Shown: in pieces, positions 10,548 through 32,539 of the stretch | Layout: the number at the start of each line of letters is the position of its first letter | Numbering within the stretch: the stretch's first letter is position 1 | Source of the DNA: Fuerstiella marisgermanici | GTDB taxonomy: Bacteria > Planctomycetota > Planctomycetia > Planctomycetales > Planctomycetaceae | Length of the DNA stretch: 64,000 nt | Assembly: GCF_001983935.1 (NCBI RefSeq) | Contig: NZ_CP017641.1 | Location: 8,110,001 to 8,174,000, forward strand | Direction: 5' to 3' | Translations under genes and position numbers: made by a program | The notes under the pieces: model-generated | The model's input: the letters and a program-made list of their open reading frames with translations, nothing else | Databases searched by the model: none | Told to the model about the DNA's origin: nothing

Positions 10548-10557
10548 CGTGCTTTCC

Positions 10558-16245: not shown

Positions 16246-16601
16246 CGTCGCCGATTTCGCCAGAGGCCGGTGCGGCCAGTTGAATTCCAGGCAAGGTCAG
16301 ATTGATCGCTCACCGGCCAGACGGGACGTTCATCGAGCGGTTCGTCCATCAGTTGGAATGCTCTGAGGGTGCCATTGTTGCACGCCGTTGCCTCGGAGCA
16401 ATTCCGGTGCTCCTATGGCGACCGGCTTGTCAGAACACCGTAACAAGCTTCATCAAACGCTTCAGCCAACCGCAGAAATTGCGGCCGAAGTCCCTGGCGA
16501 CTTCCGCTACGAGGAACGTGATGGCGAGTTTGGCACAGGCGTTGCGACCACCGCCTGTCGGAACCGTGCCGACGTCCCCTTTTCTCGAACTCAAAGGAAG
16601 A
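16246..16601. other. 356-bp stretch upstream of the copper-binding gene, no supported gene
   Basis: The frame of the downstream Cys-rich protein is open through most of this stretch but shows no conserved protein. I see neither a clear hairpin nor a regulator-binding palindrome. It probably holds the promoter of the Cys-rich gene. Confidence 0.4.
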
Positions 16602-16925
16602 ATGATGAGCTACGAAAAGTGTATTCAGGAATGTCAGGCATGTGTGGCGGCGTGTCAGGAATGTCTGTACGAAATGGCCACGGGCGACAGCAACAATGAC
16701 TGTCCGAAATGCTGCATCGAGTGCAGCGACATCTGTGAACTGTGCGCGAAGGCGATGGCTCGCGGCAGCAAATACACTGAGCAGTACTGTCAGATGTGTG
16801 CAGAGATCTGCGACTGGTGTGCAGATCAATGCGAACAGCACGAACACGACCACTGCCGAAAATGTGCGAAAGCGTGTCGAACTTGTGCGGAATCGTGTCG
16901 CAGCATGGCTGGCGCGACTGCGTAA
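16602..16925 (+). CDS. Four-helix-bundle copper-binding protein (DUF326/Csp-like)
   Basis: A 107-residue protein with about twenty cysteines spaced in helical CxxC/CxxxC patterns (CIQECQACVAACQEC, then CPKCCIECSDICELC, then CQMCAEICDWC). This is the pattern of DUF326 / copper storage proteins, in which the four-helix bundle binds many Cu(I) ions in its core. No signal peptide is present, so it should act in the cytosol, like the Csp3 group. The frame is open upstream to 16302, but AAAGGAAG directly before ATG 16602 decides the start. It is the one obvious cytosolic copper sink in the cluster and the strongest pointer that the cluster handles copper. Confidence 0.92.
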   Translation: MMSYEKCIQECQACVAACQECLYEMATGDSNNDCPKCCIECSDICELCAKAMARGSKYTEQYCQMCAEICDWCADQCEQHEHDHCRKCAKACRTCAESCRSMAGATA

Positions 16926-17157: not shown

Positions 17158-17922
17158 ATGAAGACGATCACAGTTGAAACCAGTATGAAATGTCAAAGTT
17201 GTCTCAGCAAAGTTGAGCCGGTGCTGGAGTCTGACACTTCAATTCACGACTGGACTGCCGACCTTGCCGATCCGCGAAAACCGATTACGCTGACGGTGGC
17301 TGATGATGTTGACGCGGAACACGTGGTTCGCCTGGTAAATAGTGTGGGAATCGACGCAACGCCAGCATCCACGACCGCCGACGCGGTTGCTCAGACTTCC
17401 GAAGATAGAAAACCGTCGTCCGAGGAAGATTCCTTTCGCTTGTCCAACTATCGGCCCCTGCTTCTCGTGGTGGCTTACGTCGTTGGAGGAACTGTTTTTG
17501 CCGAGTCGCTGCTGCCGGGCTGGAACTGGTCGCGTGCCATGACGTGGTTCATGGGTTTCTTCTTTGTTGCGTTTGCGTTCTTCAAGCTGCTGGATATCAG
17601 TAAGTTTGCCGACGCGTTTTCGACGTACGACATTGTCGCAAAGCGTTCACGAGTGTATGGCCTGTCGTACCCGTGGATTGAATTGAGCCTCGGAATTGTA
17701 TTTCTTTCACAACACTTGCTGTTGATCGCTGCCATTGTGACGCTGATCGTGATGGCCGTCGGATTGGTCGGAGTGATTTCGGCCGTTCGCAGGAAACAGC
17801 AAATCCAATGCGCCTGTCTCGGCACGGTTTTCAATCTGCCGATGTCGGCGGTCACGATCGTGGAAAACAGCGTGATGATCATCATGTCAGCGGTCATGAT
17901 CTGGACAGCATTAGTCGGATGA
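17158..17922 (+). CDS. HMA metal-binding domain fused to MauE/DoxX-like membrane protein
   Basis: A 254-residue protein. Residues 1-66 form a heavy-metal-associated (HMA) ferredoxin-like domain with the metal pair C12/C15 (MKCQSCLSK) in the right place. A linker of about 30 residues follows, then four membrane helices from about residue 100. Residues 218-222 read CACLG, like the CxCxG motif of MauE-type redox membrane proteins, which pass electrons or support disulfide formation. The fusion suggests a metal chaperone coupled to a membrane thiol-redox or metal-transfer site. It lies between the copper-binding gene and TolC 3. No ribosome-binding site is obvious before ATG 17158. Confidence 0.85.
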   Translation: MKTITVETSMKCQSCLSKVEPVLESDTSIHDWTADLADPRKPITLTVADDVDAEHVVRLVNSVGIDATPASTTADAVAQTSEDRKPSSEEDSFRLSNYRPLLLVVAYVVGGTVFAESLLPGWNWSRAMTWFMGFFFVAFAFFKLLDISKFADAFSTYDIVAKRSRVYGLSYPWIELSLGIVFLSQHLLLIAAIVTLIVMAVGLVGVISAVRRKQQIQCACLGTVFNLPMSAVTIVENSVMIIMSAVMIWTALVG

Positions 17923-18154: not shown

Positions 18155-19678
18155 ATGGAATCGCCTGCACGGTTCGCGGCTGCACTCATTTTTCTGTGCG
18201 TCAATTCTTTTTCCGCTTCCGGGCAGGATGCCTCCCGCCGCCTGCATCTTCCGGATGCCGATGGCGGCAACCACACCGGCCACGATCAGCACGACGATTC
18301 ACGTCGCCGCGACGGCACACCGATGTCGGACATACAGCACCGGATTACGAATCCGCTCGCCGTGTCTGGCGACGAAGCGGTTGGCAAGTCGTACACAAAT
18401 CCACCGCCTGTTCCGTCAGCGACGGCTCCCGAATGGTTCGATCCGGGTGGTATGGACGTATTGCAGGTTCATAATCTGGAATCCCTGTTGAGCCTCGCTG
18501 CAGCAAACAATCCCACGTTGCGACAGGCGCGACTGCACATCAATGCTGAACTCAACCGAGCCGTCCAGGCGGGACTCTATCCCAACCCCACCGTGGCCGT
18601 CATCGGTGAACAGATCGGCCTGAATGGCACGGCAGGCGAATGGGTGGGCGCTGAAATCGGGCAAACGTTCGTCACCGGCGGAAAACTGAAACTCAGTCGG
18701 AACAAGTATCTTCAGCGGGCAAAAGTCGCAGAACATAAGGCGATGGCTCAGCAGTTCCGAGTTTGCAATGACATCCGCATTCATTTCTATCGCACACTCG
18801 CCGCACTGGAGATGCTTTCACTGAAGCAGGAATTACTGAAGACCGCGGAAGATCACATGCTGACCGCTCGTGAAATGTACAACCTCGGTCAGGCTAATCA
18901 GGCATCTCTGCAGCAGGAAGCCACTGCATTGCAGATGCATCGCCTCACCGTCATGCGAGCAAAAAATCACGTTCGTCGCAGCATGCTGGAACTGTCGTCA
19001 CTGGCAGGTTCTGAGATGACAGACATTCAGATCGATGGCGTGTTGCGATCCGATCAGCCACTGATCGACTTCGATGTTGCTCTCAATAACCTCATCGAAT
19101 GCAGCCCGGAGTTGCTGGCGGCGAATGCCAAATTGCGAGAAGACTGTATCACGGTGAATCGTGAACGAGTGGAGTGGATTCCAAACCTGCAGGTGTCCGC
19201 CGGCCCCGGCTACAACAACGTCGACCGCCAGACAACGGTTGCCGCTCGGATCGGTATTGAAGTTCCGCTGTTCGATCGCAATCAGGGAACGATCGAGCAG
19301 GCTCAGGCAGACTACACACGGCAGATGCACGAGATTCGCCGGTTGCGTCTGGATCTCCGGAAACGACTGGCGGGCGAATACGACAACTACATTTCTGCCG
19401 TCCAGCATGTCACGGAGTTCGAATCCGTAATTCTTCCGGCGAAACGTAAAGCCTACGAATTGGCTCTCACGGGCTACAAACGCAGTCGCAGTGAATGGCC
19501 GGATGTTCTGGCGGCTCAGGAAGCTTACACGAACGCCCGACTGCAGTTTGTGCAGCACCAGGAATCGCAACGCACCAGCGAAGTGCTAATCAACGGATTT
19601 CTGCTGCACGGGGGGCTCGCGACGCCGGAAGGACCTGTTCCTGGTGGCCACATCGATGCAGTGCCAAAGCCACGCTAA
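18155..19678 (+). CDS. TolC-family outer-membrane channel (TolC 3)
   Basis: A 507-residue outer-membrane efflux protein with a normal signal peptide (FAAALIFLCVNSFSASG) and no lipobox cysteine, unlike the other two. A linker carries a His cluster (DDSR and NHTGHDQHDDS) at about residues 32-50. The OEP repeats start near VHNLESLLSLAAANNPTLRQA and keep FVTGGKLKLSRNKYL and EVPLFDRNQGTIEQAQADY. The multicopper oxidase gene follows 86 bp downstream, so the two are probably cotranscribed. Three TolC proteins for two pumps in 7 kb is more than usual. Confidence 0.92.
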   Translation: MESPARFAAALIFLCVNSFSASGQDASRRLHLPDADGGNHTGHDQHDDSRRRDGTPMSDIQHRITNPLAVSGDEAVGKSYTNPPPVPSATAPEWFDPGGMDVLQVHNLESLLSLAAANNPTLRQARLHINAELNRAVQAGLYPNPTVAVIGEQIGLNGTAGEWVGAEIGQTFVTGGKLKLSRNKYLQRAKVAEHKAMAQQFRVCNDIRIHFYRTLAALEMLSLKQELLKTAEDHMLTAREMYNLGQANQASLQQEATALQMHRLTVMRAKNHVRRSMLELSSLAGSEMTDIQIDGVLRSDQPLIDFDVALNNLIECSPELLAANAKLREDCITVNRERVEWIPNLQVSAGPGYNNVDRQTTVAARIGIEVPLFDRNQGTIEQAQADYTRQMHEIRRLRLDLRKRLAGEYDNYISAVQHVTEFESVILPAKRKAYELALTGYKRSRSEWPDVLAAQEAYTNARLQFVQHQESQRTSEVLINGFLLHGGLATPEGPVPGGHIDAVPKPR

Positions 19679-19764: not shown

Positions 19765-21288
19765 ATGACCAGCCATCACCCCAATCCGGGCCGACGTGAA
19801 TTTCTGAAACACGGCGGCTTTGCCGCGGCTGTTCTGACCGCTGCGACTGCGGCCGCTCAGGACGAAAAGCCGGGGACCGGACATCATCAACACGGTCAGC
19901 ACAATGCGGCACAGGCTCCACCAGCTATGCCACCCACGGTCGAACACCGGCATGACCATGTCGAAGCGGTGTACGATGGGTTTTCACGCTATGTTCCGAG
20001 TCGAGGCAATGATCCTGACAGCGACTACTATATCGGCAAACTGGTGCCCGGATTTCGTAAAGCGGAAGATGGGCCGGCACCTTTCGAAGCTCCGGATCTG
20101 GATAAGCTTCCCTTCACTCTGAAAGACGGCGTGAAAGAATTTCACCTTGTCCCGCAATCAGTGCAGCGAGAATTCCTGCCGGGGCAAATGATGAACGTTT
20201 GGGGCTTCAACGGTTCGATGCCGGGACCGACGATTGAGATCAATCAGGGCGATCGAGTTCGCATTGTCGTGACCAACGAGCTGCCGGAAGAAACGACTGT
20301 CCACTGGCACGGATTCGAACTGCCGGTGCAGTACGACGGTTCGCACACGATGACCCAGAACCCCATCAAACCGGGGGAGACTTTCGTCTACGAATTCGAC
20401 GTCCACGAACACGGCACGTTCTGGTACCACACGCATGTTGCCATGCAGGAGACGCACGGAATGGTGGGCTGGATGATCGTTCATCCGGCAAAGCCGATTG
20501 GACCACCCGTGGATCGAGACTTCGGTCTGTTGTTTCAGAACTTTGCCATCAAGCCAAACCAGACGATCAACAATTCGTGGTCCATGGACTGGAACTGGCA
20601 CACAATCAACGGACGCAGCGGACCATACTCAACACCACTGGTGGTTAAGCACGGGGAACGTGTACGAGTTCGCCTGATGAACTTCTCACCGATCCAGCAT
20701 CATCCGGTTCACCTGCACGGCCACACGTTCTGGGTCACCGGCCACGAAGGAGCACGGATGCCGAAGTCTGCCTGGGTTCCTCGAAACACGGAACTGGTCG
20801 CGGTGGCTCAGGCGAGCAACTTTGAGTTCATCGCCAACAATCCCGGCGACTGGATGTTCCACTGTCACATGACTCACCACATGATGAATCACATGGTGAA
20901 CCATGTCGGCCCGACGATTCGCGACTTCGAAGACGTCGATCAGTATCTCACGAATCTCGAAAGTCGACCTTCAGTGCCGCTGCAACGCACCGATCCGAAA
21001 TTCGATGTGCCCGGATATCCTCAGGGAATGAAACACGGTTCGATGAGCCCGGAGTTCATGAAGGCCATCTGGGGCCGCCGCGAATTCATGGGCATGCGAT
21101 CGACTGTTGCGATGTCACTGATGGGACTGATGACATGCCTGCGCGTGCTGCCGGAAGACCTTTATCACAAGGTAATGGAAACCGATGAGCCAATTGAAAA
21201 AGGGGCTGTGTTTCAGGCAATCGTCAACCGTTTCGGCAACCCGGCTGACTACAAACAAGCTCCCATGAACATGATGCACGGGCGCTGA
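19765..21288 (+). CDS. Tat-exported multicopper oxidase
   Basis: A 507-residue protein. The Tat signal RREFLKHGGFAAAVLTAA is near the N-terminus and defines ATG 19765; the frame upstream belongs to the TolC gene in another phase. All four copper-ligand blocks are present: HWHGFE near residue 180, HEHGTFWYHTH near 215, HPVHLHGH near 313 and HCHMTHHM near 366. The T1/T2/T3 sites therefore look complete. A His-rich segment (GHHQHGQHNAA) follows the signal. Members near Cus genes oxidise Cu(I) to the less toxic Cu(II) in the periplasm. It is short for CopA/PcoA but fits a two-to-three domain oxidase. A Met-rich C-terminal tail (MKHGSMSPEFMKAIWG, then MNMMHGR) may hold extra copper. Confidence 0.93.
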   Translation: MTSHHPNPGRREFLKHGGFAAAVLTAATAAAQDEKPGTGHHQHGQHNAAQAPPAMPPTVEHRHDHVEAVYDGFSRYVPSRGNDPDSDYYIGKLVPGFRKAEDGPAPFEAPDLDKLPFTLKDGVKEFHLVPQSVQREFLPGQMMNVWGFNGSMPGPTIEINQGDRVRIVVTNELPEETTVHWHGFELPVQYDGSHTMTQNPIKPGETFVYEFDVHEHGTFWYHTHVAMQETHGMVGWMIVHPAKPIGPPVDRDFGLLFQNFAIKPNQTINNSWSMDWNWHTINGRSGPYSTPLVVKHGERVRVRLMNFSPIQHHPVHLHGHTFWVTGHEGARMPKSAWVPRNTELVAVAQASNFEFIANNPGDWMFHCHMTHHMMNHMVNHVGPTIRDFEDVDQYLTNLESRPSVPLQRTDPKFDVPGYPQGMKHGSMSPEFMKAIWGRREFMGMRSTVAMSLMGLMTCLRVLPEDLYHKVMETDEPIEKGAVFQAIVNRFGNPADYKQAPMNMMHGR

Positions 21289-21543
21289 TAGTTGTTGTAG
21301 ATCGGTCAGCCAAGATCGTTCACACGGAGAGTTCTCGCCTTCAATTTGATGATGGCAGACTTCGCCGCAGTTCGTTCGGATGCGTTCGCAGCAGTCGTTC
21401 GCAAGAGGACAGAGAAAGTTGCGACTTTGCCCTGACGGCAAGCTAGATTTTCACTCAGATGCGGCGTTTCGGCCGGGCTATGGGCTTCCGGCTGTCACAG
21501 GTTGAACGGTCGCACGTTGTCAAATTTGACTCTTGTAGTGAAT

Positions 21544-23298
21544 ATGCGGATGAAGTTTGCACTTGTCATCACTGGCGTGCTGGCTGCGCTGGCGATCGCA
21601 GTTCCGATGCTGGTCGTCGCGGGGTATTTCCTGCTGATCGTTCCGGGGCTTGTTCTCACCGCTGCCCCAACGGTTTTTCTGTATCTGGCTGCCACGGCTG
21701 CAGTTCGTCGTTTACTGATGAAATCAACATCAATACAAGCCACAGCGGCCGCGTTTGGTGTCGTGATTTTTCTAGGTTTGGCCGTGATGCAACCCTTTCG
21801 AGCGGCGGCGCTGGCGACATACACGGCGAAATCCTTGCCGGATGTCGTGCCTGCCAATGCCGTCGAGCTGGACGGGCATGTTCGTTTGGAGTTTCCGGAT
21901 TCTCGCCGTCAGCCGGACTGCGATTATCTGAGTCTTGCCGTGCTGGAGTCGCCCAGAGTTCAAAGCGTCACCACATCGACTGGCGGCCATGGGGGGCAAC
22001 GCGAGCCCGCGGAGTCCGCTTCTTATGCGTTGGTTTCCGCAGATGGAAATTCGCCTGTCGGAATTTTCCCGTCGGAGCCGGGCCGGATTGTTCGTGAGGA
22101 CCCGTTGCTCGTGCAGAAGCACCGTGGACGCCATTTGGTCATGGCTGCCAAAGCGGTGGAGGCGAACTGGGCTCTTCGGTTATCCGGAGACGAGCGACTG
22201 CAGCAGGTCGAACCACATGCCGCCGACACCGCGGATTGGATAGTGCAGATCGAGGATAGAACAACCGATCAGACGTCGAGGCTTCGGCGAATCACGATTC
22301 TCGATGCGACCGGCGCGGTTCGCTTTCGCAGAAGCTATCGAAAACAGGCAGTGCCCGCTCGTCTGTTTTACCTCGGTTTTCACGTCAGCGGGGGCGCTGG
22401 TACGATCTCGAATGCGTCTTTTCATGTCGGACGGCAGGTTCTGGAATCGGGCGATCGGTCGCTGAACCCGGAGTCCGCACTGTTGACGGCCATCAGTCGT
22501 CCCGCCCCGCGGTGTGATGTCCAAGACATCGCTCTGCTGCGCGAACGAGTTGAACAGATCCTTGAAGGCCCGGAAGCTTCGAGGGCTCAGCTTGAGCTGC
22601 CGCGCCGATTCCTCGGGCTGTTCTTCTTCGATACAAGTGAAGAGGATCACTCGCTGATCGCCCGAATCGTGGCGGACGATCGCGTGACCGATCTGGAACA
22701 GCCGATGAAGAACGTCTTTTCGAAAGACAAGATACCGGTTGCACTGCGTGACGCTTATGCGAGGCGAATTCTCATGAACCACACGTCCGCCAACATGCGG
22801 TACCGGCTGGCCGAACAGTTGGCGAATCTGCCGCGCGGGACGTTCGCCGATCCGACTGAAGAACATCTCGCGATCTGGAATACGCCGGAAGTCTATCGAG
22901 AAGCCGCGCCGTTTCTTGTGGCGCTGGCTGATCTCAGTCCTGAACGAGCCGTGCCAGCACTTCAGGCGGCACTCGATACTGCGCTCGGCGTACCTGACTG
23001 GAATGAACGACGAAGACTGGTCAACGGCATTTGCCAGGCGTTCGTTCGACTTGGCCCGAACGCGGCTTCCGCGGTACCTCGAATCCGCGAACTGTTTCTT
23101 CGCCGCCCATCGCCCATTCTGAGAACCTCAAAAGGCGCCGATCAATGGCGATTCACGTTGGCGCGGATGGGTGTGCCGATTAAAGACCTGCCTGTCTTCC
23201 CGAATCAATCTCCGCGCACCTTTGAGCTGATCTGTAGGCGAATCGCCGACAGGCTTCGACAGTACGAGCGCGACCACGCTAAGGAGATTGCGTCGTGA
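21544..23298 (+). CDS. Unknown protein: N-terminal membrane helices and large soluble region
   Basis: About 584 residues from ATG 21544; a TTG 14 codons upstream is also possible. Residues 1-90 hold three membrane helices, and a large soluble part follows. Its final 200 residues read like alpha-helical repeats (FLVALADLSPERAVPALQAA, then RRLVNGICQAFVRLGPNAA), perhaps HEAT-like, while the middle is beta-rich (ADWIVQIEDRT). I recognise no family and no metal motif. Its position inside the metal cluster may be accidental. It overlaps the next gene by 4 bp (GTGA), so the two form a translationally coupled pair. Confidence 0.7.
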   Translation: MRMKFALVITGVLAALAIAVPMLVVAGYFLLIVPGLVLTAAPTVFLYLAATAAVRRLLMKSTSIQATAAAFGVVIFLGLAVMQPFRAAALATYTAKSLPDVVPANAVELDGHVRLEFPDSRRQPDCDYLSLAVLESPRVQSVTTSTGGHGGQREPAESASYALVSADGNSPVGIFPSEPGRIVREDPLLVQKHRGRHLVMAAKAVEANWALRLSGDERLQQVEPHAADTADWIVQIEDRTTDQTSRLRRITILDATGAVRFRRSYRKQAVPARLFYLGFHVSGGAGTISNASFHVGRQVLESGDRSLNPESALLTAISRPAPRCDVQDIALLRERVEQILEGPEASRAQLELPRRFLGLFFFDTSEEDHSLIARIVADDRVTDLEQPMKNVFSKDKIPVALRDAYARRILMNHTSANMRYRLAEQLANLPRGTFADPTEEHLAIWNTPEVYREAAPFLVALADLSPERAVPALQAALDTALGVPDWNERRRLVNGICQAFVRLGPNAASAVPRIRELFLRRPSPILRTSKGADQWRFTLARMGVPIKDLPVFPNQSPRTFELICRRIADRLRQYERDHAKEIAS

Positions 23299-23759
23299 TA
23301 GAAAAACTGCTGCTTCACTTCATTGGATATGGTGTGTTCATCGGCGTGATGTACGGCATGTGGAAAAGCAACGCGCGGCGCTGGAGCCGCCTCGCACGGA
23401 AATACAGCGCAGGTGATCAGATACCGTCACAGGAGTCCGTGTGCTTCGCCAAACGAACCATGCAAACGGTGATTTTGGTTGGAGGCGACATTGCGTGGAA
23501 TTCATACAAGGGTATCGTGACTGTGGGCGTTACCTCAGAGGGAATCTTGCTGCAGCTGTTGCTCCCCTTCTCAATCTTCCACGCTCCACTACTGATTCCT
23601 TATCGCGACTGCAGCATCGAGCCAAAGAAGTGGTACTTGTTTGGCAAATCGCATCAGTACACGTTGACACAGGTCAGCAATGTGCAACTCATTGTCGACG
23701 ATGAGTTACAGCATTGGATCGAAACCCAGTGCGCCAGTTTAGCTGTCGCCGTTAGTTGA
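23295..23759 (+). CDS. Unknown small membrane protein, coupled to the preceding gene
   Basis: A 154-residue protein starting at GTG 23295, with AAGGAG eight bases upstream and a 4-bp overlap with the previous stop, which together decide the start. One N-terminal membrane helix (FIGYGVFIGVMYGMW) is followed by a mixed domain with a hydrophobic segment near LLLPFSIFHAPLLIPYRDC. The later part (TLTQVSNVQLIVDDEL) looks like a small beta domain. The family is not recognised, and no metal ligands stand out. Confidence 0.65.
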   Translation: MIEKLLLHFIGYGVFIGVMYGMWKSNARRWSRLARKYSAGDQIPSQESVCFAKRTMQTVILVGGDIAWNSYKGIVTVGVTSEGILLQLLLPFSIFHAPLLIPYRDCSIEPKKWYLFGKSHQYTLTQVSNVQLIVDDELQHWIETQCASLAVAVS

Positions 23760-23894
23760 TTGTGGGGCGAGGGATGGCCTTGCCATGGGCCTGATGCAGA
23801 GGAATCATGAGCGAACGTGCGTCCAACCGGATGCCGTTTCGTCGCAGAATTTTTCACTTCGATCAAAATTGATCTCGACTGATGTCACTTTGTG

Positions 23895-24350
23895 ATGAAC
23901 AATACTGCTATGCGTCGTTCAACCGCTCACATCCTGATCTGCCTGCTCACGACCGTGATGGTTGCTTTGCAGTGTATTGCACCAGCAACTGCGGGCTGCC
24001 TTTGTGCCGGGAATTCCGTGGAAAGCAGGGCTGAGGCGTCGTGTTGTTCTGAAACAACGACGGAAACGGAATGGTGCTGCGAAACGTCGAAATGCACGTG
24101 CGGCGAGCGATGTGGCGAGGGAAATACGGACTGCGAATGCGGTTGCGGTGAACGCCCTCAGAAGCCGCAACCTGCTCAGGAATCTGAATCGCCAGCCGAA
24201 TCCCACGTGAAAGTACTGGCAGATGTCAGTCTCGACGAATCAATCGTCGACGTGCTGAACGCGGCCGAGACAACAGCGATGTCTCGCAGCCACCGTACTC
24301 CATCCAACCCTTTGAACGTGCAGATTCTGCTCTGCACCTGGCAAACCTAG
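23895..24350 (+). CDS. Cys-rich secreted protein, metallothionein-like composition
   Basis: A 151-residue protein with a signal peptide (residues 1-33, ending APATAG). The next 50 residues hold about twelve cysteines, mostly as CC, CxC or CxxC pairs (SCCSETTTETEWCCETSKC, then TCGERCGEGNTDCECGCG). The spacing recalls metallothioneins, but the protein is exported and the similarity may be compositional. The C-terminal half is polar and without cysteines. Its place before the metal-binding lipoprotein and the CusBA pair suggests periplasmic binding of soft metal ions such as Cu(I) or Ag(I). The ATG at 23895 follows directly on a GTG that could also start. Confidence 0.7.
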   Translation: MNNTAMRRSTAHILICLLTTVMVALQCIAPATAGCLCAGNSVESRAEASCCSETTTETEWCCETSKCTCGERCGEGNTDCECGCGERPQKPQPAQESESPAESHVKVLADVSLDESIVDVLNAAETTAMSRSHRTPSNPLNVQILLCTWQT

Positions 24351-24496: not shown

Positions 24497-24838
24497 ATGC
24501 GCTATTTAATATGCGCCAACCTCATGGCTGGACTGTTTGTAATTACTGGTTGTTCAGAATCCGGTTCGGCTCCCGCGGCCGTCGCCATGGCTTCCAATTC
24601 CGTCTGCCCCATCATGGGTCACGACGTGACAGATGACGGTGGGCGAGTGGAATTCGACGGCAAAACGATCGGATTTTGTTGTTCGGGATGCATCGAAAAA
24701 TGGAATGCTCTGTCGGCCGAAGACCAGGCGGAACATCTGAAGAACCCGCCCAGCGAAGAAGGTGAGCACGGCGATCACGATCACGGCGAGCATGAGAACC
24801 ATGAAGCTCATGGCGATCACGAAGGCGAATCTGCCTGA
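24497..24838 (+). CDS. Lipoprotein with YHS-like CPxMG/CCxxC metal-binding domain and His-rich tail
   Basis: A 113-residue protein. The lipobox VITGC ends at about residue 19. A compact domain then runs from CPIMGHDV to IGFCCSGCIEKW, the CPxM...FCCxxC pattern of small YHS-related metal-binding domains. The tail is a His/Glu/Asp tract (HGDHDHGEHENHEAHGDHE) that should also bind metal. It probably carries Cu(I) or another soft metal at the membrane to the adjacent adaptor CusB2, which ends in a similar domain. A 128-bp gap with a long hairpin separates the two genes. Confidence 0.82.
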   Translation: MRYLICANLMAGLFVITGCSESGSAPAAVAMASNSVCPIMGHDVTDDGGRVEFDGKTIGFCCSGCIEKWNALSAEDQAEHLKNPPSEEGEHGDHDHGEHENHEAHGDHEGESA

Positions 24839-24851
24839 TCGAGACACACTA

Positions 24852-24921
24852 TGAGCGGTCAGCAGGAATTGCCCTGATGGCACGGTTCCACGTTTGTCAG
24901 GTGTTCCTGTCTGACCGCTCA
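24852..24921. repeat. Long imperfect hairpin between the lipoprotein gene and CusB2
   Basis: TGAGCGGTCAG at 24852-24862 pairs exactly with CTGACCGCTCA at 24911-24921, and CAGGAA (24863-24868) with TTCCTG (24904-24909), leaving one bulged T and a loop of about 35 nt. No T-run follows directly. It may be a terminator, an attenuator or an mRNA-stabilising stem between the two genes. Confidence 0.65.
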
Positions 24922-24966
24922 CCTTTTCAATTTTGTTGCTGACATTTCTCCTCGGGAGGATGACTC

Positions 24967-26874
24967 ATGCCTTCAACTCGCAAAAACACAACTCTGCAGC
25001 GTCTCAAGGCTGTGCTGGCGTACATCGGGCTGCCGCTCATGTTCTTCGTTGCCGGGGCCAGCCTGTTTTTTGTGCTGGGGCTGATGCAGCGAATCGGCTG
25101 GATCTCGGCGGGTGAGGGCACTTCAACAGTCTCAGCGTCGGCTGCTGCTGACGTTGAATACATCTGCCCGATGATGTGCGTTCCCCCGCTGAAAGAACCC
25201 GGTCGCTGTCCAGTGTGTGCCATGGAACTGGTTCCCGCAACGGGAAAGAACGCTGACGGAGACGATCGTTCGATTATTGTCGATCCGGCGTCGCGGCGAG
25301 TTGCCAACATTCAAACGGTTTCGGTGAAATCAAGATCCGTTGAACGGACAATCCGCTCCGTTGGTGAGCTGCAGTACGACGAAGGCAGTCTGAAAACGAT
25401 CACCGCATATTCCGGTGGCCGTATCGAACGGTTGTTCGTTGATTATACGGGAGCCGTCGTTGAGAAAGGCGACCGGCTGGCGTTTTTGTACTCTCCACAA
25501 CTGCATGCAGCTCAGGTGGAGTTTCTCCAAGCGTCGAAAATGCAAACCGGAAGCTCGCGACTGCAGGCCGTCGCGGAAGCCAACCGATTGCTGCGGCTGA
25601 ATGCTCGCCAGAAACTGGTTGAGCTGGGTATGAGTGAAACGCAAATCGCGACGCTCGAACGCAACGGAAAACCAGACAGCCGTCTCGACATTCTCGCACC
25701 GCTGGCTGGCACGGTGATCAATCGTATGGTGTCTCAGGGGCAAACGGTCCAAGATGGCGAACCTCTGTTTCAACTGGCCGACCTTTCGTCCGTCTGGCTA
25801 ATGCTGGAACTGTTTCCACAGGACGCGGCTGCCGTCCGGTACGGACAGCGTGTTGACGCCACGCTAAAGTCGATCCCGGGAGAAACATTCTCCGGCAGAA
25901 TTGCTTTTGTCGATCCAGACGTCGATCCGAAAACTCGAACGGTCAATGTTCGAGTCGTCATCGGTAACAAGGACGGGCGACTACGCATCGGTGACTACGC
26001 TCGCGCAGAAATCGTGGTGCCGGTCGGTGATTCGGATCGGAAGCAGATCTATGACCCGGAACTGGCCAGCAAATGGATCAGCCCACGGCATCCCCACATC
26101 GTTTCCGACAAACCCGGCCAATGTCCGTTGTGCGGAGACGACCTGATTGCCGCGTCGAAACTGGGATTTACCATTACGCCGCCAGCAGAATTCAAATCGC
26201 TGGTCGTGCCTCGAAACGCCGTGCTTCAGGCGGCGGGACACAGTGTGACCTATGTGGAAGAAGAGCCTGGTCGGTTTGCTATTCGCCGAGTCATCGCGGG
26301 GCCGACTGTTGGTGATGAAATCGTGATAGAACAGGGTCTCGCGGCTGATGAGAAGATTGCGACTCGCGGAAACTTCCTACTGGATTCGCAGATGCAGCTT
26401 GCCGGGAATCCGTCTCTGATTGATCCCACGCGGGCCGCCGAACCGTTGAAGATGATTCCCGGGTTCGATGCAACGATGCTGGCGGCCATTCAAATGCTCC
26501 CGGATGCCGATCAACCGGCGGCGTTAGAGCAGGTCATCTGTCCGGTGACGAAATTCAAGCTGGGATCGATGGGTATTCCGCCAAAGGTCTCGGTCGCCGG
26601 CAAAGACATCTACTTGTGCTGCGAAGGTTGTCGCGACAGCCTGATGAAAGACCCAGAAAGCTACGTCAGCATGCTGGAAACCATGAAGGCGGAGGGCACG
26701 CTCCATGATGCCGCCAGTGAAGATGCCACGATGCCGGAAATACCTGCCATCGGAGCCATCGAAGACGTCGAGGCCATTGACGACAGCGCACTGCCACCAA
26801 TTGGCGAGATGCAGCTTGTGCCACCACCTGGGATCATTGAATCGGCCGACTCAACGGAGGGCGATCAGCAATGA
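24967..26874 (+). CDS. cusB: CusB-type periplasmic adaptor with three metal-binding domains (adaptor 2)
   Basis: A 635-residue adaptor, longer than usual. After an N-terminal membrane anchor (residues 17-45), a heavy-metal-binding motif CPMMCVPPLKEPGRCPVC lies at about residues 66-83. The HlyD-type core follows (barrel-sandwich, alpha-hairpin near residues 170-220, beta-barrel). A second motif of the same type, HPHIVSDKPGQCPLCGDDL, interrupts the sequence near residue 380 before the membrane-proximal part. A third domain at about residues 523-570 (CPVTKFKLGSMG, then LCCEGCRDSLMKDPESY) resembles the neighbouring lipoprotein and the four-segment protein at 30.4 kb. CusB proteins hand Cu(I)/Ag(I) to CusA, and here the metal-binding capacity is built in. 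Start ATG 24967 has GGGAGG upstream. It overlaps the pump gene by 4 bp. Confidence 0.95.
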   Translation: MPSTRKNTTLQRLKAVLAYIGLPLMFFVAGASLFFVLGLMQRIGWISAGEGTSTVSASAAADVEYICPMMCVPPLKEPGRCPVCAMELVPATGKNADGDDRSIIVDPASRRVANIQTVSVKSRSVERTIRSVGELQYDEGSLKTITAYSGGRIERLFVDYTGAVVEKGDRLAFLYSPQLHAAQVEFLQASKMQTGSSRLQAVAEANRLLRLNARQKLVELGMSETQIATLERNGKPDSRLDILAPLAGTVINRMVSQGQTVQDGEPLFQLADLSSVWLMLELFPQDAAAVRYGQRVDATLKSIPGETFSGRIAFVDPDVDPKTRTVNVRVVIGNKDGRLRIGDYARAEIVVPVGDSDRKQIYDPELASKWISPRHPHIVSDKPGQCPLCGDDLIAASKLGFTITPPAEFKSLVVPRNAVLQAAGHSVTYVEEEPGRFAIRRVIAGPTVGDEIVIEQGLAADEKIATRGNFLLDSQMQLAGNPSLIDPTRAAEPLKMIPGFDATMLAAIQMLPDADQPAALEQVICPVTKFKLGSMGIPPKVSVAGKDIYLCCEGCRDSLMKDPESYVSMLETMKAEGTLHDAASEDATMPEIPAIGAIEDVEAIDDSALPPIGEMQLVPPPGIIESADSTEGDQQ

Positions 26875-29800
26875 AGTGGCTGCTGACATTCTGCCTTCGA
26901 GAACGCTTTCTCGTTTTACTGGCCATGTTCGGTTTGATTGCCGCTGGCTGGTATTCGGCGCAAACAGTTCCGATTGATGCCATTCCCAACGTCGGTGAAA
27001 ATCAGGTGATTGTTCTGACCGAATGGATGGGACGATCCCCCAAGGACATCGAAGACCAGGTGACATATCCTCTGTCCGTCGCCCTGCAGGCCGTGCCTGG
27101 TGCCAAGAGTGTTCGTGGCAAGAGCATGTTTGGCTTTAGCTTTGTGCAGGTCACGTTTGGCGACGACATCGATTTCTACTGGGCCCGATCGCGTGTTTCT
27201 GAACAGCTCACCACTGTTGCCGGGTCGCTGCCGGATGACGTCAGTCCCGTGCTGGCACCGGATGCGACGGCTCTGGGACAGATTTATTATTACGTCCTCG
27301 AACCGCCTGCAGGCATGGACCTTGCCGAACTCAGGTCGAAGCAGGACTTCTTCGTGAAGTATTCGCTGCAGTCCGTGGAAGGCGTCGCTGAGGTCGCATC
27401 GATTGGTGGCTACGTTAAGCAATACCAAATCGACGTTGACCCCGACGAACTGCGGTACCACAACCTTCCGTTAAGTTCCGTCATCACTGCCGTCAAAGCG
27501 TCAAACATCGACGTCGGTGCCAAAACGATCGAACAAAGCGGAATGGAATTCATCGTTCGTGGTCGCGGTTTCATTGGTTCCGGAAAGTCCGAAGCTGAGA
27601 CAATCGAACAGATCAAAGACACAGTCGTAGCTACGCGCGATGGTGTCCCCGTCACCATCGGTCAACTTGCCGCAGTGCAGACAGGTCCGGCATTCCGTCG
27701 TGGTGCGCTGGACTTCAACGGGCAGGAAGCGGTCGGTGGTGTCGTCGTGATGCGGTACGGTGAGAACCCTCGTGCGGTCATCGATCGACTTGAAGAAAAG
27801 ATCGCCTCGCTGGAAAAAGATCTCGGCGGTATTCGGATCGTCGGCGTCTATGACCGCACACTGTTGATCGACGAAACGATCGGCACGCTGACGAAGGCGC
27901 TCACGGAAGAGACCATCATCACCATCATTGTGATGATCTTGTTTTTGCTGCACATTCGAGCCAGTCTGATCATTGCCTTGACGCTGCCGACGGCTGTGTT
28001 GATGTCGTTTATTGCGATGAGAGTTTTCGGTGTCGACGCAAATATCATGTCGCTGGCAGGTACCGCGATCGCCATCGGTACGATGGTCGATATGGGCATC
28101 ATCGTGCTGGAAAACATCTACGAAGGCTTGGCTGAGTGGGAAGTGGCACAGGCGTCCGGGGACAGCACATCAGCAAAAGCTGGTGCGACGCAGTTCGACG
28201 TCATTCGCGACTCTGCTGCGGAAGTCATTCCAGCAGTGATGACGGCTGTGACGACAACCATCGTCAGTTTTCTGCCCGTCTTCTTCCTGACAGGGCGCGA
28301 TCATCGAATGTTCTCCCCGCTGGCATGGACAAAAACATTCGCACTCGCCGCCAGCCTGATTGTTGCCGTGACGCTCGTTCCGATGCTGTGCCGCATGCTG
28401 TTGACCGGTGGCAAAAAGAAGACGTTTACGACAGTCGCATCATCCCTTGGATTCGCCGTGCTGCTGACATCGCTCACTTATTTGTGGCGTTCACAATTGT
28501 CGAGTGCCACCCACCTGCCGGTAAGTCTGTTGATGCTGCTTGCTGTCTGTGTCGGCTTGCTTGTGGGGTGGTGGATGTCGCGCGAACGCGTGCGGTCAAT
28601 GGAAGAGAATCCCGTCAGTCGGTTCGTTCGCTGGCTGTACGGTGGACGGTTGCAATTCGCCCTGAATCACAAACTGATCGCATTGGCATTTCCCGCAACC
28701 ATTCTGTTCGTCGGACTCGGAGCGTGGCTGGGCTTTCCCACGATTCTGCAACCGGTCGAACGTTTTGCCCGCAGCATGGGTGCGGAACTCAACAACGTGC
28801 CGGGCTACGTAGACGCCAAGCACACGTTCACCGGGCTAAAGAGTGACGACTGGATCGCTCTGGACGAAGGCAGTTGGTTTTACATGCCCAGTCTTTACCC
28901 AGCGGCCGGGTTTACTCAGGCGATGGAAGTCCTGCAGACTCAGGACGCCATGATCAAGCAGATTCCGGAAGTCGCGAATGTGTTGGGCAAGATTGGGCGA
29001 GTCGAATCAGCGCTCGATCCGGCACCGGCCGCGATGATCGAAACCTACATCATGCTGAAGCCAAAGTCCGAATGGCGCGAGGGCGTGACAGAACGATCAA
29101 TCTGGGACGAAATCAACAAAGTGGCCACCGTTCCCGGAGTCACTCCCGCATCGCCGCTGCAGCCGATTGAAGGTCGAGTGGTGATGCTGCAGAGCGGTAT
29201 TAAGGCCTCGATGGCCATCCGAATTTACGGCGACGATCTGCAGGGGCTTTCGGAAGCGGCTTTGGCAGTTTCCGATCATCTCAAGTCGCTTCCCATGGTC
29301 AACGCGGGAACCGTCAGCCCAGACATCGTAATGGGCAAACCGTACGTGGAATTCGAGGTCGATCGCAAAGAAGCGGCTCGCTACGGCATGAATACCATGA
29401 TGGTGAATCAGATCGTCGCGGCAGGACTGGGGGGACTTGACGTCACTGAAACCGTCGAAGGACGCGAACGCTACCCGATTCAGGTGCGATTCGATCGCAG
29501 CGTGCGAGACCATGTGGAGGACATGAACGAAGTTGCGGTGGTCACGCACACTGGCGAAGTCGTGCCGCTCAAACACCTCGCAACCATGACTCAGGTCTGG
29601 GGCCCCGGAGCGATCAACAGCGAAGACGCTCGGCTGGTCGCCCACGTTTCGTTCTCGCCCGCTCGACAGGGAGGGGATCTGGAAACGGTGGAGGCCGTGA
29701 TGGCGTCATTGACTAAGGCCCGAAACGCGGCATCGGCGAATCCGCAGGACATCAGTGATGGCCTGCACTTTCCAGACGGTAACTTTGAATTGCAGGCGGT

Positions 29801-30404
29801 CGGTTCCTTTCAAAATCAGATCGAAGCCAATCAGCGGCTGATGTGGATCATTCCGGTGGTGGTACTGATCAACCTGCTGCTGCACTACCTTCACTTTCGC
29901 GACCTCCCGCTGTCACTGGTTGTGTTCTCAGGCATTCCCTTCGCAGCGGCGGGAGGCATGATTTGTGTGGCAGTCATGGGAGTCGACACAAACACGGCCA
30001 TGTGGGTCGGCTTCATCGCATTGTTCGGCCTCGCTGCCGACGACGGCATCGTGATTGCAACCTACATGAAAACGGTGCTCGACGAACGAGACATTCGCAG
30101 CGTCGCAGAACTTCGCGAAGCCATTTACTTCGCGGGCCTCAAGCGAGTCCGTCCCTGCCTGATGACCACGATCACCACGCTTGCTGCTCTGGTGCCGGTC
30201 CTGATCTCAACGGGACGAGGAGCCGATGTCGCACGAGCAATGGCGCTGCCGGTGTTCGGTGGCATGCTGATTGAACCGTTCACGTCGTTCATCGTGCCCA
30301 CACTGTACTGCGCTTATCGAGAATTCACGATGCGAACCGGGCTGGAACAGGTTCCGGAAACATCGCCTGTGGCAACTTCAAACATCGCTGAAGTACCCCA
30401 ATGA
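26871..30404 (+). CDS. cusA: HME-RND heavy-metal efflux pump, CusA-like (pump 2)
   Basis: A full-length RND transporter of 1177 residues with the standard two halves. Helix 4 reads GTMVDMGIIVLENIYEGL, with one Asp and one Glu as in CusA pumps for monovalent ions, unlike the two Asp residues of pump 1. The second periplasmic loop has VVMLQSGIKASMAIRIYG, which parallels the MLxTGIK motif of E. coli CusA. An insertion in the middle of the first half (residues about 525-580, TFTTVASSLGFAVLL and a hydrophobic helix pair) is longer than in E. coli CusA. ATG 26871 overlaps the adaptor stop by 4 bp (ATGA), so the two are translationally coupled. The expected substrate is Cu(I) or Ag(I). Confidence 0.95.
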   Translation: MKWLLTFCLRERFLVLLAMFGLIAAGWYSAQTVPIDAIPNVGENQVIVLTEWMGRSPKDIEDQVTYPLSVALQAVPGAKSVRGKSMFGFSFVQVTFGDDIDFYWARSRVSEQLTTVAGSLPDDVSPVLAPDATALGQIYYYVLEPPAGMDLAELRSKQDFFVKYSLQSVEGVAEVASIGGYVKQYQIDVDPDELRYHNLPLSSVITAVKASNIDVGAKTIEQSGMEFIVRGRGFIGSGKSEAETIEQIKDTVVATRDGVPVTIGQLAAVQTGPAFRRGALDFNGQEAVGGVVVMRYGENPRAVIDRLEEKIASLEKDLGGIRIVGVYDRTLLIDETIGTLTKALTEETIITIIVMILFLLHIRASLIIALTLPTAVLMSFIAMRVFGVDANIMSLAGTAIAIGTMVDMGIIVLENIYEGLAEWEVAQASGDSTSAKAGATQFDVIRDSAAEVIPAVMTAVTTTIVSFLPVFFLTGRDHRMFSPLAWTKTFALAASLIVAVTLVPMLCRMLLTGGKKKTFTTVASSLGFAVLLTSLTYLWRSQLSSATHLPVSLLMLLAVCVGLLVGWWMSRERVRSMEENPVSRFVRWLYGGRLQFALNHKLIALAFPATILFVGLGAWLGFPTILQPVERFARSMGAELNNVPGYVDAKHTFTGLKSDDWIALDEGSWFYMPSLYPAAGFTQAMEVLQTQDAMIKQIPEVANVLGKIGRVESALDPAPAAMIETYIMLKPKSEWREGVTERSIWDEINKVATVPGVTPASPLQPIEGRVVMLQSGIKASMAIRIYGDDLQGLSEAALAVSDHLKSLPMVNAGTVSPDIVMGKPYVEFEVDRKEAARYGMNTMMVNQIVAAGLGGLDVTETVEGRERYPIQVRFDRSVRDHVEDMNEVAVVTHTGEVVPLKHLATMTQVWGPGAINSEDARLVAHVSFSPARQGGDLETVEAVMASLTKARNAASANPQDISDGLHFPDGNFELQAVGSFQNQIEANQRLMWIIPVVVLINLLLHYLHFRDLPLSLVVFSGIPFAAAGGMICVAVMGVDTNTAMWVGFIALFGLAADDGIVIATYMKTVLDERDIRSVAELREAIYFAGLKRVRPCLMTTITTLAALVPVLISTGRGADVARAMALPVFGGMLIEPFTSFIVPTLYCAYREFTMRTGLEQVPETSPVATSNIAEVPQ

Positions 30405-30438
30405 AATCACCCTCTGTTTTTCACAAAGGAATGAACTG

Positions 30439-31302
30439 ATGAAACGTCAAACCTCTCTGCTGCTGATGCTGGCCTGCATTGCGTTCTTGCCCGGAGTCCA
30501 CGCTGAGGATTCGTTACCGGACTCGACCAAGGCGCTATCGCAACACGATCAGCTGAAAATTGCGGCTCAGAAGATCTGCCCTGTCATGGGCAAACCACTT
30601 GGCAGCATGGGTTCACCAATCAAAGTCAGGATCGGCGATCAGGAACTGTTTCTGTGCTGCGAAGCCTGTCGCACGAAGCAGGTCGATCGACAACACTGGG
30701 CAACGATCCATGCCAACTTTCGGAAGGCTCAGGGAAAATGCCCAGTGATGGGCAAGCCACTCCCGGTCAACGCCAAATACACGATTGCCAACGGACAGCT
30801 TTTCTACACCTGTTGCCCGCCCTGCGTGGACAAGATCAAAGCTGATCCGAAAACGTATCTGACAAAACTCGACGACCTGTATGCCACCAACCTCGCCGAA
30901 CCGCAAACTCACGACGAAATCAAGATCGCCGTACAGAAGATCTGCCCCGTGATGGGAAAGCCTCTGGGAAGCATGGGTGAGCCCGTCAAAGTGAAAATCG
31001 GTGACGAGGAACTATTTCTGTGCTGCGAAGCGTGCAGAACGAAGCAGGTTGACACCACGCACTGGGCCACGATTCACAAGAACTTCCGCAAGGCTCAGGC
31101 AACGTGCCCGATCATGGGGAAGCCGATCCCGGCAAACGCAAAGTGGACGTTCGTCAACGGTGATATCGTTTACGTTTGCTGCCCTCCTTGTATTGCAAAG
31201 ATTAACGCCAAACCGTCACTGTACTCGGAGCGGCTGACGGAACTCTACGGGAAGCATCTTAGAATGGTTGCGGGCAATGCCAGACGGGAATCCGCTTTTT
31301 GA
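30439..31302 (+). CDS. Secreted protein with four CPxMG/CC-type metal-binding segments
   Basis: A 287-residue protein with a signal peptide (LLLMLACIAFLPGVHA). Two tandem repeats of about 120 residues follow; each has two halves. The first half has CPVMGKPLGSMG then LFLCCEACRTKQVD; the second has CPVMGKPLPVNAKYT (or CPIMGKPIPANAKWT) then YTCCPPCVDKI. The four CP motifs lie near residues 47, 101, 169 and 221. Each half resembles a YHS-like domain of about 50 residues, with a CPxMG loop and a CCxxC pair. The two repeats are about 80% alike in their first half, so this is an internal duplication. ATG 30439 is chosen because AAAGGA lies eight bases upstream; the frame upstream runs inside the pump gene. 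It probably buffers or delivers periplasmic copper for CusBA. Confidence 0.85.
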   Translation: MKRQTSLLLMLACIAFLPGVHAEDSLPDSTKALSQHDQLKIAAQKICPVMGKPLGSMGSPIKVRIGDQELFLCCEACRTKQVDRQHWATIHANFRKAQGKCPVMGKPLPVNAKYTIANGQLFYTCCPPCVDKIKADPKTYLTKLDDLYATNLAEPQTHDEIKIAVQKICPVMGKPLGSMGEPVKVKIGDEELFLCCEACRTKQVDTTHWATIHKNFRKAQATCPIMGKPIPANAKWTFVNGDIVYVCCPPCIAKINAKPSLYSERLTELYGKHLRMVAGNARRESAF

Positions 31303-31423: not shown

Positions 31424-32539
31424 ATGAAATTTTATCTTCTTGCCTGGTGGTCCGCATGTGCCACAATGCTGACTGCGCATGCTCCGTTGTCCGCTGCATC
31501 GATCGTCAATGTTGTCGAATCTTCCGTAGTGCAGAATTCTCGACAGCCGCAGGCTGCCGTGCGTGCCAACGGAACAATCTTCGTGGCGTTTGGGGCTGAT
31601 GACACGATTTACTGCTGCCGGTCTGTCGAGGACGGCACGGCATTCCAGCCGCCGGTTCGCGTTGGTCACCTTCCGGCCCTTGCTCTCGGCCGTCGTCGTG
31701 GCCCGCGAATCGTGGCGAACGATGAGGCCATTGTCGTCACGGCCATTAGTCACGACAACGGAAACCTGTTTGCCTGGCGATCAACCGATGATGGAGAAAG
31801 CTGGAGTGACCCGGTTCAGGTCAACGACTCCGTGAAAGACTGTCGAGAAGGACTTCATGCGATGGCCCTGGCTCCGAACGGCAACGTCTTCTGCACGTGG
31901 CTGGATCTGCGGAGCCGAGGCACAGAAATCTTCGGGAGTCACTCAGCCGACGGCGGGGCATCATGGAGCAAGAACCACCGTGTTTATCGATCGCCCTCCG
32001 GCACAGTGTGCGAATGCTGCCATCCGTCAGCAACCTACCACGCTGACGGAAGTCTGCACGTAATGTGGCGCAATTCACTGAACGGCTCTCGCGACATGTT
32101 CCTTGCGTCTTCGGCGAATGACGGGCAGACATTCTCTCAGGCTAAGAAGCTTGGGCAGCAGACATGGAAGCTCAATGCCTGTCCAATGGATGGTGGCTAT
32201 CTGGCATCGACCGGCTCGGGAAAGATCACAACTGTCTGGCGACGCGACAACACCGTCTACCGGACAGACTCTGCCGACGGTGCTGAAACCGTGCTCGGGC
32301 GTGGACTCCAGCCATGGGTCGCCGGCACCGACGACGGCGCGTTTATCGCCTGGCTTAGTCGACTCAACGGCCCTCTGATGTATGTGGTGCCTGGTTCAGC
32401 AACACCCCGGAAGGTGGTGGATGCCGCTGCTGACCCGGTCATTGTCAGTCCCGTCAATGCCAAAGGTCCGGTTGTCATCGTTTGGGAGACCGGTACGCGA
32501 GAAGATTCTTCCATCAAGGCCACCATCATTCGGCAATGA
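31424..32539 (+). CDS. BNR/sialidase-like secreted beta-propeller with CECC motif
   Basis: A 371-residue protein with a signal peptide (residues 1-24). It shows repeated BNR/Asp-box motifs (STDDGESWSDP, SADGGASWSKN, SANDGQTFSQA), so it should fold as a six-bladed propeller like bacterial sialidases. The catalytic Arg triad and Tyr/Glu of real sialidases cannot be assigned with confidence, so sialic-acid cleavage should not be assumed. An unusual SGTVCECCHPSATYHADG segment near residue 205 and CPMDGG further on could bind metal or form disulfides. It closes the rightward metal string and shares its orientation, with a 121-bp gap. Confidence 0.8.
   Translation: MKFYLLAWWSACATMLTAHAPLSAASIVNVVESSVVQNSRQPQAAVRANGTIFVAFGADDTIYCCRSVEDGTAFQPPVRVGHLPALALGRRRGPRIVANDEAIVVTAISHDNGNLFAWRSTDDGESWSDPVQVNDSVKDCREGLHAMALAPNGNVFCTWLDLRSRGTEIFGSHSADGGASWSKNHRVYRSPSGTVCECCHPSATYHADGSLHVMWRNSLNGSRDMFLASSANDGQTFSQAKKLGQQTWKLNACPMDGGYLASTGSGKITTVWRRDNTVYRTDSADGAETVLGRGLQPWVAGTDDGAFIAWLSRLNGPLMYVVPGSATPRKVVDAAADPVIVSPVNAKGPVVIVWETGTREDSSIKATIIRQ

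Follow-up and report, generated by a model that had tools for sequence, protein, structure and literature searches.

In this study, we investigated a stretch of 64,000 nucleotides from the planctomycete Fuerstiella marisgermanici (hereafter the window, G000:C1:8110001-8174000 of a genome held in a single contig of 8.92 Mb), and observed that three neighbouring proteins of a Cus-type efflux locus, namely a lipoprotein (24497..24838), a CusB-type periplasmic adaptor (24967..26874) and a secreted protein (30439..31302), all on the + strand, carry six copies of a cysteine-based module. These modules probably serve as periplasmic carriers that capture Cu(I) and deliver it to the pump, standing in for CusF and for the CusF-like domain of SilB, a reading to which we assign a probability of about 0.68. 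They are read as the Cu(I) carriers of the pump because they occupy both of the positions that CusF and the CusF-like domain of SilB take, that is, free in the periplasm and on the C-terminus of the adaptor. We infer that Cu(I) is the ligand, which residues bind it and that it passes between the proteins.

The preliminary description of this DNA had listed six copies of a CPxx...CCxxC module of about 50 residues in the three proteins, and all of them were recovered from the translations of the open reading frames. The lipoprotein harbors one copy (24596-24745, +), the C-terminus of CusB another (26527..26688, +; CPVT ... CCEGC, placed by profile and alignment and modelled at a confidence of about 90), and the secreted protein the remaining four, designated A1 (30565..30726), B1 (30727..30885), A2 (30931..31092) and B2 (31093..31248), all + and, like the lipoprotein copy, delimited by a profile of the six modules. 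In the alignment the only columns invariant across all six are the C and P of the loop and the C-C-x-x-C, with the cysteines spaced as C-x23-CC or C-x25-CC, then xxC. The loop reads CPVM, CPIM or CPVT; five of the six modules display CPxMG, and the CusB copy displays CPVTK. Sequence comparison indicates that the six modules are homologous and more than a chance likeness, as the four-copy protein matched the CusB module at E = 4.5e-8 in a single-sequence search of its whole genome and the lipoprotein, searched against 5946 open reading frames (those of the window together with those of 100 fetched loci), retrieved the four-copy protein with E = 5e-11. When the profile was run against the whole 8.9 Mb genome, 11 matches were obtained, the top six being its own members and the other five weaker. 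In the four-copy protein, 16 of the 17 cysteines lie within the motifs, and the remaining one, residue 13, falls in an apparent signal peptide recognized by eye. The further claim that proteins of differing location in the envelope have the module in common also stands, with the locations assigned by eye and, for CusB, from an AlphaFold2 model.

On sequence grounds, the six modules are domains of the TRASH/YHS superfamily and form a CC sub-type of it. The four-copy protein exceeds the cut-offs of two Pfam TRASH models (PF08394 at 38.7 bits and PF24273 at 37.5 bits, cut-offs 27), which bears out the earlier view of the copies as one YHS-like domain, and a brand-new domain is ruled out by these same matches. 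The lipoprotein reaches 24.6 bits with PF24273, below the cut-off of 27, and of 33 A-B units (module pairs), including the two of the window, PF08394 matches 31 with E <= 0.01; the unit at the head of the list obtains 26.6 bits against the cut-off of 27. With YHS proper (PF04945) the best module of the window obtained 17.9 bits against a cut-off of 30.3, its loop not being DPVC, and a scan of the genome with this model gave four YHS matches, none inside the window. An AlphaFold2 model of the A-B unit (predicted local distance difference test, pLDDT, 89.4; predicted template modelling score, pTM, 0.82) displays in each module a beta hairpin followed by a helix, with the CC at the hairpin end. 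Among the 50 listed of 210 Foldseek matches to this model are the TRASH domain of ZMYM5 (2das), toluene/phenol hydroxylases and the ribosomal chains 8br8_LX, 8ev3_u and 6skf_BY, which we take to be L24e-type; sequence search yielded no useful solved relative.

The TRASH domain reportedly goes back to a founding paper, Ettema 2003, and TRASH/YHS domains usually follow the cysteine pattern C-x(19-22)-C-x3-C. Compared with these domains (PF08394, PF24273, PF04945; CopM, CopR, L24e and the YHS of Cu-ATPases), the modules of the window type agree in size, in the N-terminal C/D-P-x-x loop, in the predicted beta hairpin and the C-x3-C before the helix, and in metal handling, which often concerns copper. 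They differ in that the second cysteine of the YHS loop is replaced by T, M, S or A, that an extra cysteine stands beside the first one of C-x3-C (as in some ordinary YHS too), that the layout, otherwise the same, becomes C-x23/25-C-x3-C with a loop longer than x19-22, and that the modules of the window are exported, come as tandem arrays and are joined to an RND (resistance-nodulation-division) adaptor. TRASH/YHS domains are known in copper sensing (PMC4626032, PMC7830388) and toluene-4-hydroxylase has a YHS domain (PMC4626032).

The module had initially been credited with its own CC motif, which is too broad. Among 55 distinct modules from 70 planctomycete loci around PF04945 matches, own genome included, those with a cysteine at loop position 4 (mostly DPVC) carried CC in 10 cases and lacked it in 16, and CC as a mark unique to window-type modules is therefore ruled out. 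What is special is the pairing of CC with the loss of that cysteine, for CC was found in 26 of the 28 modules without Cys 4 and was absent from 2. The Fisher test of this table gave p = 2.8e-5, a value to be taken as a guide only, with modules classified by eye, row L127 dropped, the four-module L155 counted four times and nine rows having seeded the profile. Because CC nearly always accompanies the loss of the second YHS cysteine, the sequences suggest that the ligand has been relocated, a cysteine of CC coming in its place. A wider set, collected with a CC-trained profile, displays CC in 261 of 268 modules and Cys 4 in none of the 248 that were classified, the other 20 including a few PxCGM-type YHS. 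At the place of the Met in CPxM, these 248 modules harbor Thr in 76, Met in 64, Ser in 50 and Ala in 34. Since Met is thus a minority, M(G) is not the defining feature and CPxMG as an obligatory Met site is ruled out; of the motif given in the preliminary description, the invariant C, P and CCxxC are retained and the M(G) is given up.

The metal site would likely consist of Cys 1 and the cysteines of C-C-x-x-C. Vicinal cysteines in an exported protein would also suit thiol chemistry, in which CC and the third cysteine form disulfides or a redox or folding device for envelope proteins and metal binding is secondary, and two more Cys-rich proteins lie nearby (23892-24350 and 16302-16925). We consider this quite improbable in view of the membership in the TRASH/YHS superfamily, the conservation of CC jointly with Cys 1, and the linkage to a Cu(I) pump when compared with control loci.

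This linkage of module and pump is recurrent in Planctomycetota. Candidates for CusA, of which up to three were scored per genome, were matched in 65 of 199 genomes and gave 71 places, of which 56 were examined, the 15 dropped being the weaker ones. Modules were found in 30 of these 56 stretches (53 modules, 462 kb) versus none of 40 control stretches (360 kb), a comparison in which related loci are counted as independent and the controls are hand-picked round coordinates, not random draws, in 22 of the same genomes. None of nine short loci at other RND places of the own genome contained a module. Where the module is not fused to CusB, it lies before CusB or after CusA. A second set, chosen by the CusB C-terminus, comprised 110 loci, of which 80 were kept, 75 being planctomycete by title and five other organisms or metagenome-assembled genome bins. 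In 37 of these 80 loci, a set chosen by the CusB module itself, the adaptor with its module is followed by a full CusA and at least 1.5 kb beyond, and a module protein occurs within 1.5 kb downstream in 22 of the 37 (two modules in 18 of these proteins, four in 3 and one in 1). The soluble protein of the relatives is thus often a two-module protein encoded soon after CusA, and relatives of the lipoprotein stand 5' of a CusB-like reading frame without module in G010 and G014. In a looser search of the phylum, with up to 23 candidates scored per genome, 105 of the 294 genomes had A-type modules (E <= 1e-6). A single-protein scan of genome contigs confirmed no relative of the four-copy protein, one scan of viral contigs gave none, and among plasmids there was one distant match, on a Phycisphaera mikurensis plasmid (30.7%).

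The four-copy protein has the order A-B-A-B and is a tandem duplicate of a two-module A-B unit. In a tree of 34 units, from which L080 was left out, the two units of the window are mutual nearest neighbours (70% identity, support 97/89), and the doubling in L074, which groups with the first unit of L067, is separate from that of the window; L067 and L080 likewise have proteins with four modules. Proteins with many modules and 16 cysteines resemble capacity builders, and the separate doubling in the lineage of the window and in that of L074/L067 fits the main rival explanation, in which the four-module protein and the lipoprotein merely hold periplasmic Cu(I) as a copper sponge and the module of CusB acts as a sensor, its response opening or activating the pump, with no hand-over. 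Such a sensor has a precedent in an adenylyl cyclase whose YHS domain switches in response to copper (PMC4626032). We regard this explanation as unlikely, as a module common to the adaptor and to a soluble partner near CusA (the 22 of 37 loci) suits transfer at least equally well.

The pump to which the modules are linked belongs to the Cu(I)/Ag(I) type. CusA (P0005, 26871..30404, +), a transporter of the CusA/CzcA type whose reading frame shares 4 bases with the end of that of CusB, scores 805.5 bits with TIGR00914, the model of the heavy-metal efflux (HME) RND transporters, over the cut-off of 701.45, and its nearest PDB match is E. coli CusA. According to PMC8092243, the Cu(I) site of CusA consists of M573, M623, M672 and E625, and further methionines of the protein form a transmembrane relay. 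All 54 aligned CusA proteins, own included (within L224-L279), retain equivalents of the four site residues, on positions taken from an alignment to 3k07 and mapped by hand. At the relay positions scored, which exclude M271 and M1009, M486 and M501 are Met in none of the 54 (L/I and C/A/S instead) and M755 is Met in 8. Because the triad is kept and M486 and M501 are never Met, the sequences favour loading of the pump from the periplasm. The window pump thus has the same TIGR00914 transporter, adaptor and Cu(I)-site methionine triad with glutamate as the E. coli CusBA HME-RND system, and it differs in the Cys-type HMBD at the N-terminus of its adaptor and in the partial loss of the relay methionines. 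The assumption that the modules handle another soft metal (Hg, Cd, Zn), the copper pump genes being only neighbours, draws on L24e, in whose crystal structure Cd(II) is bound by the TRASH cysteines (PMC4626032); with the Cu(I)/Ag(I)-site triad in all 54 CusA and a module fused to the adaptor of that same pump, it is very improbable.

The adaptor matches HlyD_D23 (4.5e-67), HMBD in two stretches (3.1e-17) and, over its cut-off, RND_mfp, and scores 127.8 bits with TIGR01730 (RND periplasmic adaptor, cut-off 94.9). With NF007303 it obtains 86.5 bits against a cut-off of 390, which makes it a CusB-like adaptor outside the E. coli-type subfamily. Its layout comprises a predicted N-terminal helix, two HMBD zones, a barrel-sandwich and the C-terminal module, and in the AlphaFold2 model (pLDDT 80.5, pTM 0.58) the module is confident and the tail behind it of low confidence.

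CusF itself is rare in these genomes, being over the cut-off in 1 of 119 and present at E <= 0.001 in 3 of 119, and the own genome has none at E <= 0.001. A CusF hidden in the three module proteins was rejected, with no CusF_Ec (PF11604) match at E <= 1. The metal ligands of CusF are Met, His and Trp. The window modules, by contrast, are Cys-based and of TRASH type. CusF is a small beta barrel that in E. coli exchanges Cu(I) with CusB, and in SilB of Cupriavidus metallidurans a CusF-like domain sits at the adaptor C-terminus, a free-standing CusF being known as well (PMC4446572). Modules and CusF/SilB thus show the same two placements, free in the periplasm and on the C-terminus of a Cus-type adaptor. 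Among the open-licence PubMed Central matches listed, searched by titles and abstract openings, no paper dealt with TRASH/YHS modules in RND adaptors, and 'YHS domain' with 'CusB' gave no open-licence match there. To call the locus an undescribed system, as was done at first, is nevertheless too strong, since domain and pump both belong to known kinds, and SilB and CusF already provide the case of a metallochaperone domain at the C-terminus of an adaptor beside a free-standing one; it is a recurrent, unnamed architecture built of known kinds, for the TRASH version of which those titles and abstract openings held no description.

In the proposed carrier mechanism, the lipoprotein and the soluble four-module protein would take up Cu(I) outside the cytoplasm and pass it to the C-terminal module of CusB, which would in turn offer it to CusA. 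The metal relay suggested in the preliminary description is thus a plausible, still hypothetical scheme. A wider version, in which a Cys-shifted TRASH sub-type replaced CusF throughout Planctomycetota, with modules mobile among lipoprotein, tandem protein and adaptor and with an identical-domain chain from lipoprotein through (AB)n and CusB to CusA, is tentative and has somewhat less than an even chance.

Several observations weigh against the carrier role and have to be set beside this evidence. No module was seen in 26 of the 56 CusA-chosen stretches, as far as the stretch examined extends; it is fused to CusB in only 5 of the 56; and 15 of the 37 loci with CusB module and CusA have no downstream module protein. 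Seven congeners have no comparable multi-module protein (best E 8e-9), because of which the module set must be called patchy. The relay methionines of CusA are partly kept, namely M391 in 44, M410 in 31 and M403 in 28 of 54. The CusB module stays below every Pfam cut-off, its best match being YHS at E = 0.06, and as the four-copy protein passes the TRASH cut-offs while the CusB copy passes none, the CC sub-type appears to be poorly modelled. None of the 210 Foldseek matches of the A-B unit reached E <= 0.001, and those listed also hold LIM domains and unrelated proteins. Moreover, vicinal cysteines could be present as disulfides in an oxidising periplasm.

Taken as carriers, the modules suggest two solutions to the carrier step of Cu(I)/Ag(I) efflux, reached with unrelated folds (the CusF barrel and the TRASH-type Cys module) at the same two positions. 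The data would further provide a likely function and partners for many uncharacterised secreted proteins of planctomycetes, delineate within TRASH a sub-type whose Cys ligand is shifted and which existing models recognize poorly, and make the hand-over of copper between like modules directly testable.

The genes follow each other in the order lipoprotein, CusB, CusA and four-module protein. The lipoprotein has a lipobox, ITGC, recognized by eye, and a tail rich in His, Asp and Glu. Upstream lie an outer-membrane efflux protein presumed to be the third part of the pump (18155..19678, +; OEP 3.4e-26), a multicopper oxidase (19765..21288, +; Cu-oxidase_3 1e-36) with a Tat-like (twin-arginine) leader seen by eye, whose longest reading frame runs from 19495 and whose start at 19765 is inferred, and a Csp1-like four-helix copper-storage candidate (16302-16925, +), which scores 39.3 bits with TIGR04401 (cut-off 100) and 22.9 with DUF326 (cut-off 20.4). 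Together, the RND pump of Cu(I)/Ag(I) type, the multicopper oxidase and the Csp1-like protein make a setting that agrees with periplasmic copper handling. The reading frames at 21502-23298 and 23295-23759, between the upstream genes and the lipoprotein-pump set, match no Pfam family over cut-off. The protein at 17158-17922 (+) is a fusion, with an HMA-like N-terminus (a CxxC recognized by eye) joined to a MauE membrane domain (PF07291). Immediately upstream of the lipoprotein, 23892-24350 (+) encodes a secreted-looking protein with 15 cysteines in dense CC/CxC clusters, possibly a metallothionein-like buffer; it matches no Pfam family at E <= 1 and, among 38 relatives, only two congeners weakly (E 3e-4 and 8e-4).

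No RNA family reached its gathering score within the window. Likely mobile elements of the window are an IS66 transposase at 61958-63418 (-) and, at 41900-43249 (+), a UPF0236 match that is weak and below its cut-off. More heavy-metal RND-like transporters occur at 7095-10616 (-) of the window and at G000:C1:8097919-8101005, 9-12 kb before it, and the island of metal genes may extend beyond the module-pump set. Adjoining the four-module gene, a BNR-repeat protein (31424-32539, +) displays the motif VCECCHP, and in the metal loci L038/L117 (which share one contig), L098 and L118 its relatives retain either SVCECCHPS or TVCECCHPS.

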